A stretch of DNA of 64,000 bases, taken from contig NZ_JAQNDK010000002.1 of assembly GCF_028368935.1 (NCBI RefSeq), forward strand, positions 2,356,001-2,420,000, in the 5' to 3' direction. Numbering within the stretch: the first letter of the stretch is position 1; each line of letters begins with the position of its first letter. Both the position numbers and the translations under genes were made by a program. Under the pieces are notes generated by a model. That model did not search any database, had not been told where the DNA came from, and saw only the letters and a program-made list of their open reading frames with translations. The DNA comes from Sorangium aterium. GTDB taxonomy: Bacteria; Myxococcota_A; Polyangia; Polyangiales; Polyangiaceae. Shown here piece after piece: positions 18,749 to 49,907 of the stretch.

Positions 18749-18870
18749 GCCCCTTTGTGTGCGCCGGCCTGCGGATGCGCGCGTAAAAGCTCTTGGAGAC
18801 CGGTGAAGGCCCACCAGGCATGGGCCTTCACCGAGCTTCGCGCCGCGTTCTCCTACCTCCAAACATGAAC

Positions 18871-19086
<216 letters not shown>

Positions 19087-28519: not shown

Positions 28520-34264
<5,745 letters not shown>

Positions 34265-35236: not shown

Positions 35237-40903
<5,667 letters not shown>

Positions 40904-48648: not shown

Positions 48649-49155
48649 ATGACGATCTCGATGTATCAAGCCTCGGTCCCGGTGCTCGTCAGGATGCTCG
48701 GCAACCTCTCGGCGATCCTCACCAAGGCCGCCGCGTATGCCGAGGCGAAGAAGATCGAGCCTCGCGTCCTGCTCGACGCGCGCCTCGCCCCGGACATGCT
48801 CTCGCTCACGCGCCAGGTGCAGATCGCCACCGACTCGGCCAAGGGCTGTGGAGCGCGGCTGGCGGCCGTGGACCTGCCGAAGTACGAGGACAACGAGGCC
48901 AGCTTCGACGAGCTACAGGCCCGCATCGCCAAGACTGTCGCGTTCCTGAAAAGCCTCCGGCCCGAGCAGATCGACGGCTCCGAGGACCGCGATGTCTCCA
49001 TCCCGGCGCGCGACCAGACGCTGCAGTTCAAGGGCCTTGTTTACCTGCTGAACTTCGTGCTGCCCAACTTCTATTTCCACGTGACGACCGCCTACGCGAT
49101 CTTGCGCCACAACGGCCTCGACATCGGCAAGATGGACTTCCTGGGCGCCCGCTAA
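48649..49155 (+). CDS. DUF1993 family protein
   Basis: A 168-residue protein with AAGGAG before the ATG. It matches DUF1993 over its full length: SMYQASVPVLVRMLGNLSAI, LAPDMLSLTRQVQIATDSAK, ASFDELQARIAKTVAFLKSL and PNFYFHVTTAYAILRHNGLD followed by IGKMDFLG. The fold is a DinB-like four-helix bundle. The biochemical role is unknown. A 127-bp palindrome begins 13 bases after its stop codon. Confidence 0.88.
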   Translation: MTISMYQASVPVLVRMLGNLSAILTKAAAYAEAKKIEPRVLLDARLAPDMLSLTRQVQIATDSAKGCGARLAAVDLPKYEDNEASFDELQARIAKTVAFLKSLRPEQIDGSEDRDVSIPARDQTLQFKGLVYLLNFVLPNFYFHVTTAYAILRHNGLDIGKMDFLGAR

Positions 49156-49168
49156 TCCGAGCGGCGCC

Positions 49169-49295
49169 CGAGCGGCGGGCACCCGCTGCGGATACGGGCC
49201 CACCTCGACGTTTTCGGTGCTCAGCGCACTGGAGTGCGCTTCCGCGCCGAAAACGCCGATCTGGGCCCGTCTCCTGTGCGGGTGACCGCCGCTCG
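49169..49295. repeat. 127-bp near-perfect palindrome between convergent genes
   Basis: Nested stems share one centre (49231-49232): 49169-49186/49278-49295 (17 of 18 pairs), 49194-49202/49262-49270 (9 of 9), 49209-49217/49247-49255 (9 of 9) and 49223-49230/49233-49240 (8 of 8). The internal loops are nearly symmetric (7/7, 6/6 and 5/6). There is no U-run, so it is not an ordinary intrinsic terminator, although it could stop transcription from both sides. Confidence 0.85.
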
Positions 49296-49388
49296 TCGTC
49301 GCTTCGGGGGGGTGGATTCAGAAGAGACGAAGATTTCTTTTGTTGCGGGCATGCCCTGACGCCGTGGCTGTCGGGGGGCTGACGCCTG

Positions 49389-49907
49389 CTACCGCGTGCG
49401 CCTTCGATCATGCTGATGCGCTGGAAGCGGGCCGAGCCGCGTCGTGTCGACGAGGAGCGAGACGACGAGCGAGAAGAAGCGGCGGCGCGTCTCGAAGCTC
49501 GGGCTCAGGTCGGGGAGGAGGGCGCCTATCCGCCCTGCGCCGGCGTCGTGGAGGACGCGCTTGGCCATGTCGAGGGGCTCGATGTGGGCGGGGTAGAGGT
49601 CGTCCCCGGAGAGCTTTCTGATGAGGCCCACGTACTCGCCCACGAGCGGCGCGACGTCCGCCCGCGCGAGGGCGAGCGCGTCCACCGGGAGGGAGCTCGC
49701 GGTGAAGACGAAGTGGAGGTCCCTGTCGTCGCAACCGGCGACGAGGGTGCAGGGCTCGCGCGAGGGCCAGGGCGGCTCGCCGGAGACGATATCGGCCGTG
49801 ATCGTGCGCCACTCCTGCCTGCGGAGCGGCGACGCGCTCGACCAGAGGCGCTCTTCGATTCGGATGGCATGGACGGGCATAGGGGCTGAGCTCATTGTAG
49901 CGCTCAC
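49389..49907 (-). CDS. UPF0262-like protein
   Basis: A 172-residue protein. The core LVGEYVGLIRKLSGDDLYPA, HIEPLDMAKRVLHDAGAGRI and PSFETRRRFFSLVVSLLVD lines up with UPF0262 proteins (IEAIDMGRRGLHNEG, DFDTARRLFTLICVL). The N-terminal half is more diverged. The function of the family is unknown. The start is uncertain: in-frame starts at 49907, 49895 and 49880 all lack a clear ribosome site. It is convergent with the DUF1993 gene. Confidence 0.68.
   Translation of the reverse strand: MSATMSSAPMPVHAIRIEERLWSSASPLRRQEWRTITADIVSGEPPWPSREPCTLVAGCDDRDLHFVFTASSLPVDALALARADVAPLVGEYVGLIRKLSGDDLYPAHIEPLDMAKRVLHDAGAGRIGALLPDLSPSFETRRRFFSLVVSLLVDTTRLGPLPAHQHDRRRTR

Follow-up and report, generated by a model that had tools for sequence, protein, structure and literature searches.

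A dispersed palindromic element at the stop codons of genes in Sorangium and other Polyangiaceae

In the 64,000-nucleotide stretch of Sorangium aterium DNA analysed here (the window), a long palindrome lies between two convergent reading frames, a DUF1993 gene on its left and an open reading frame (ORF) with a weak match to UPF0262 on its right. A preliminary description made from the letters of the window had drawn attention to a palindrome at 49169–49295; the natural unit is 49170–49294, 125 bp, a length common to most of its copies. This copy starts 14 nt past the TAA of the DUF1993 gene, which is atypical, since most copies overlap the stop codon; the end of the convergent ORF lies about 97 nt beyond its right edge. 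The features of the locus are as follows.

48649–49155, plus strand: upstream gene, DUF1993 (PF09351, E 1.6e-64), with its stop codon TAA at 49153–49155
49170–49294, plus strand: palindromic element of 125 bp, its orientation defined by asymmetric internal loops
49170–49229, plus strand: left arm, with an outer stem (49170–49186) holding one mismatch, then conserved inner helices
49217–49247, plus strand: conserved apical module, GTGCTC-R-R-CGYAC / loop / GTRCGYYTSCGCGC, common to several genera as judged by alignment and base pairing
49230–49233, plus strand: apical tetraloop
49234–49294, plus strand: right arm
49389–49907, minus strand: convergent downstream ORF, weak UPF0262 match (E 5.8e-6)

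The palindrome itself was confirmed. Across 49169–49295, 44 of 63 positions are complementary in an ungapped comparison, as against a mean of 18.6 (standard deviation 4.1) over all centres in the window, and the predicted fold of -111 kcal/mol compares with -67.2 ± 4.3 in dinucleotide shuffles (z -10.2; 0 of 200 shuffles as good). The opposite strand gives a z of -11.6. Elsewhere in the window, complementarity of this degree is reached only in a tract of simple tandem repeats at about 18.93–18.96 kb. The outer stem, first taken as 18 bp, is present but is split by one mismatch into 10 and 7 pairs, and the partial complementarity suspected in the internal loops of 6–7 bases takes the form of 3-bp helices within them. 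Rfam covariance models gave no match at gathering score over the whole window, and a permissive scan of 49100–49400 returned only miRNA and IRES matches far below threshold. Other repeats were also observed in the window. At 18869–19083, a GTGGTC-type tandem repeat flips to its own inverse complement at about 18.94 kb and forms a second long palindrome, and two arrays of a 126-bp unit, of about 13 copies each, occupy 28705–30401 and 35432–37114; this unit resembles coding repeats of the WD40 type.

The element is dispersed in its own genome and in those of its congeners. Model R1, a covariance model derived from 60 copies, places it at 54 sites of the S. aterium genome, BLAST finds at least 40 places of at least 91% identity each (40 of 234 first-look candidates were scored), and a pattern of 8 + 8 nt taken from the arms finds 50, with none for the reversed control. 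A core pattern is present in all six Sorangium genomes and in none of 33 others, and a scan of named genomes gave only Sorangium records among the at least 80 matches listed. A chance palindrome or local recombination product in single copy, which the preliminary description had also considered, is refuted by the 54 places and by relatives in 34 of 108 genomes of the family, and its probability is practically nil. The copy set used below comprises 165 unique Sorangium copies in 166 rows, one row being a duplicate (L060/L033), with at least 114 copies from other strains collected by the core pattern; rows were kept only if they covered at least element positions 8–118, by which 25 of 191 hits were dropped. 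Genes around the copies were called by a custom codon score, with the window as training set, and not by a gene finder.

The Sorangium palindrome starts with GAGCGRCGGTCACCCGC and ends with the complement of this start. About a quarter of the copies (39 of 166 rows, recognised by motif) keep a right-hand tail, whose length is exactly 38 nt in 22 cases and whose end CCGCTCTA is the left end inverted, so that full-length copies run TA-GAGCGG ... CCGCTC-TA. The terminal inverted repeats are thus formed by TAGAGCGG..TCACCCGC at the left and its complement at the end of the tail. With a size of 125 bp, or about 163 bp with the tail, the element is short and non-coding and reaches a high copy number.

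The position of the element relative to genes is highly regular. The left edge straddles a stop codon in 131 of the 166 rows, either as TA-G (83 rows) or as T-GA (48 rows), the hyphen marking the edge; where an upstream frame was called (131 rows), TAG stands at exactly -2 in 59 and TGA at -1 in 36. The right edge has no comparable stop-codon peak. Only two of the 166 copies lie inside called genes. In 152 rows genes were called both to the left and to the right of the element; 145 of these have the upstream gene on the element's strand, and the flanking genes converge in 106 (70%), as compared with 91 of 635 background neighbours (14%). In convergent pairs the strand count is uninformative on orientation, and the evidence there is the anchoring of the left and not the right foot; in co-directional pairs, 39 elements lie in sense and 6 are reversed. 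A specific function of the upstream genes was rejected as the common factor, since their proteins are unrelated, forming 121 clusters among 146 proteins. The convergent setting fits the bidirectional terminator that the preliminary description had offered as one option. A canonical intrinsic terminator, which the preliminary description had also thought the palindrome unlike, was rejected for want of a T-tract: at least four T in 8 nt follow the hairpin in just 7 of 166 rows, with a mean of 1.46 T as compared with 1.11 at +60.

The same preliminary description had named a MITE-like mobile element among its options, and mobility is apparent from the comparison of filled and empty orthologous sites. 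Gene ends were compared between S. aterium and up to five congeners for the window site and 12 further sites of the own genome. Among 53 orthologous places, 5 are filled and 3 carry remnants; the others are empty (L197 cannot be judged, as it ends 42 nt past the gene), which indicates that the element moves and that no gene clearly needs it. At the window gene the element is missing from four of five relatives, and strain So ceGT47 carries at the stop codon what resembles the remnant of half an element. Protein length does not depend on the presence of the element at 10 of the 12 own-genome sites, the window site excluded; at L031 and L021 an in-frame TAG from the element shortens the own protein. 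The stop triplet can differ between strains, as at L029, where it is TGA in the four empty relatives and TAG in both filled genomes. At L056, TAA replaces TGA in the So ceGT47 copy with a matching change in the opposite arm, by which the stop-codon base covaries with the right arm. A TA duplication is clean at one site (L058 compared with L205). Apparent remnants (L221, L216, L188 and L052), with internal deletions or as half hairpins, were also seen at stop codons, and a route of element loss could be readable there.

Candidates for the mobilising function were sought in the genomes themselves. A Y1 (HUH)/RAYT transposase (PF01797) was rejected, as none was found in the four genomes searched; the controls were positive in 5 of 14. 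A search of the own genome for the end pattern, which was not exhaustive, recovered only hairpin copies, lone ends (L050–L054) that have no partner end nearby, and an IS4-family element inserted into the apex. The 1.59-kb structures with paired ends, tried as an autonomous parent, were rejected because they consist of this IS4-family insertion sequence (NF033590), inserted at the exact apex of two other own-genome copies (L048, 1284–2872; L049, 1316–2904). It is identical in both, while the hairpin arms differ, and is flanked by the 8-bp duplications ACTCCAGT and ACGTGAGT. This apex-nested element may be specialised for the hairpin as a target.

Covariation, for which a check in relatives had been suggested, is strong. 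In 60 aligned copies, 15 of 52 pairs are changed on both sides, and the double-change cells number 105, as against 26.8 in shuffles, none of 500 of which reaches 105. The fold is conserved with compensatory changes, as in structured RNA elements. With the 12 of 166 rows that are not exactly 125 nt left out, the inner loops are near-invariant and the feet vary, positions 41–53 and 75–85 being conserved by construction in the other-strain copies collected with the core pattern. At the five orthologous filled sites, identity is 0.90–0.98 in the core, 0.77–0.91 at third codon positions and 0.67–1.0 in the feet; in the next 120 nt downstream, which are mostly unalignable, it is mostly about 0.45–0.6, with four pairs at 0.78–0.83. 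Judged from these alignments, this pattern is that of purifying selection or gene conversion and not of neutral decay. Part of the covariation could come from arm-to-arm correction, which does happen, since in three of the 60 aligned copies (L122, L156 and L060) an inner loop is now perfectly complementary to the opposite arm. Such quasi-palindrome correction is what would be expected of an element acting at the DNA level, as a cruciform or a REP-like protein-binding site, in which covariation would reflect template switching and not selection on RNA. The fold is equally good on both strands and the IS4-family element sits in the apex of two copies, which also suit this explanation. However, in most copies the outer stem varies and the internal loops keep identical mismatches, and the sense placement next to genes speaks for RNA, so that the DNA-level explanation appears quite improbable.

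Hairpins of the same kind extend beyond Sorangium. Among 144 genomes of the order searched with model R1, whose E-values like those of R2 below are rough because of a short calibration, 7 have matches, and five of the 7 represent other Polyangiaceae genera. These other-genus hairpins (L244–L282) share the apical module GTGCTC-RR-CGYAC / GTRCGYYTSCGCGC; their feet are unrelated in sequence and are still paired, and 25 of 33 cross-genus consensus pairs show double changes. With a cross-genus model (R2), diverged relatives were detected in 22 of 48 Polyangiaceae genera and in 34 of 108 genomes. A sample of 317 genomes from the class gave R2 hits at 1e-5 in 24, of which 23 belong to Polyangiaceae; searches over more than 40 genomes ran under stricter filters, and their negatives are weak. 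Sorangium is placed in Polyangiaceae by NCBI taxonomy, and the family labels of the genome sets come from the search tool. The only hits outside the family at E 1e-5 (G307, C423:1265–1388 and C99:3016–3136) are in a 60%-complete genome, where transfer, misbinning and true spread cannot be told apart. Anchoring to stop codons is found in these relatives to differing degrees. In G135 the hairpin starts with a stop codon in most copies, and an ORF of at least 100 codons ends at -4..+3 for 20 of 21 left feet, as compared with 5 of 21 right feet. The offset is looser in G139 and G144 (4 of 15 fall at -4..+3 and the majority lie within 12 nt), and anchoring is weaker still in G013 and G148. In four genera that did not contribute to model R2, as G148 and G013 did, 19 of 20 left feet again have a stop at -4..+3, as compared with 2 of 20 in the mirror control at the right foot (G116, G006, G180 and G134). 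The search hits were reduced to one best row per locus before this count, which kept 30 of 36 rows, the remainder being opposite-strand or second hits, and 3 of the 69 cross-genus rows repeat others (L294/L270, L301/L281 and L307/L278). The family-wide spread, like the anchoring and the fixed orientation, was beyond the view of a reading confined to one stretch of DNA.

The main rival to any functional reading is a purely selfish MITE that targets TA, for which the anchoring would need no function. TA is rare in GC-rich DNA, at 0.85% of positions in the window (the background chance of finding it before a random position), and is concentrated in stop codons; insertions within genes would be lost, and the first G of the element would turn TA into TAG. 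The rarity of TA, the inverted TA-bounded ends of full-length copies with their tail, often of exactly 38 nt, the one clean TA duplication and the high turnover all speak for such an element, and it explains well the enrichment of TAG, which makes up 79 of 136 stops at elements and 178 of 815 elsewhere. It leaves unexplained the orientation bias in co-directional pairs, the feet with TGA or TAA in other genera, and the conservation of the core above synonymous sites. It also does not account for the T-GA class: in such copies, L042 and L018 for example, TGA is present in all compared relatives, which is a misfit with a simple TA target. A wholly selfish origin of the pattern is for these reasons regarded as unlikely.

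On balance, the evidence leans towards a MITE-like or REPIN-like mobile palindrome of Polyangiaceae that is placed in sense at gene ends and kept as a 3'-end structure, either a terminator or a protector of mRNA. Its turnover and the TA duplication point to a mobile element. That the transcribed hairpin matters is argued by its covariation and constrained core, by its sense orientation and by its location where transcripts end. Insertion probably duplicates TA, going by the one clean case, and a putative mobilising enzyme would recognise the conserved apical and inner region. The first bases of the element would restore or supply the stop codon (TA-G), so that insertion at gene ends would do little harm. 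The stop codon of the upstream gene falls in or beside the base of this hairpin, which has about 60 bp and would form the 3' end of the mRNA. Several observations count against this reading: most orthologous sites lack the element, the T-GA copies do not fit a simple TA target, the window copy lies 14 nt past its stop codon, and the search for a mobilising enzyme in four genomes gave no Y1/RAYT transposase. A further consideration against a 3'-end role is that a hairpin this near the stop codon should, as an ordinary terminator, be repressed by the ribosome; in E. coli, according to PMC4824070, the terminator hairpin tR2 undergoes such repression. This repression of an ordinary terminator, together with the missing T-tract, favours a structure whose closure follows the departure of the ribosome. 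We thus favour a hairpin that would close upon release of the ribosome at the stop codon and would end or protect the mRNA by blocking read-through, 3'-to-5' decay or both. Between convergent genes, one hairpin would serve both transcripts.

Small palindromic mobile repeats are a kind of element already known, and several of them resemble the one described here. The TA-type MITEs Correia/NEMIS, RUP and ERIC, compared here by their published features (PMC2267715 and PMC2229807), are likewise under 200 bp, with inverted ends, terminal TA in full-length copies and many intergenic copies; ERIC is also a single long stem-loop of about 127 bp. Unlike these three, the Sorangium element is GC-rich, has a fixed sense orientation and carries a stop codon at its foot; it is also restricted to Polyangiaceae apart from one incomplete genome, and no parent transposon was found for it. 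YPAL/RU-2 of Yersinia may also be associated with stop codons. Like the present element it is palindromic and intergenic and of similar length, and it is thought, in the portion of PMC2229807 devoted to it, to be co-expressed with upstream genes and to affect the stability of the upstream transcript; it differs in having no TA termini and in duplications of 3–26 bp (same portion of PMC2229807). REP/REPIN sequences with RAYT are also high-copy extragenic palindromes that persist for long and are targets of insertion sequences, but they measure 20–40 nt and not 125, and the Y1 transposase is absent from the four genomes searched. Intrinsic terminators share the position of a hairpin after a gene, often between convergent genes, but differ from an element that has no T-tract, has arms of about 60 bp and starts in the stop codon. 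Integron attC sites are imperfect palindromes that follow an ORF and are oriented relative to the gene. The conserved apex and variable feet seen here are the reverse of attC, and the copies are dispersed and not arrayed. No description of this element family, or of any repeat with a stop codon in its stem, was found in the open-access literature, and the element does not appear in the passages of the So0157-2 genome paper (PMC3696898) that concern repeats, palindromes and terminators. A further reading is put forward tentatively, as possible and no more: that this is a new class of element, a family-wide mobile 3'-end RNA hairpin homing to stop codons, in which the stop codon in the stem and its matching complement would couple translation termination to closure of the 3' end, and which would be maintained by a putative enzyme, of the host or of a mobile element, that reads the apical module.

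In GC-rich bacteria with few T-tract terminators, how transcripts end and are protected is poorly known, and how small palindromes choose harmless sites is unsolved for most MITEs. This one family brings both questions together, with filled and empty sites in sequenced strains, a fixed orientation and a stop codon in the stem, and its apical motif could serve as bait for a binding protein.
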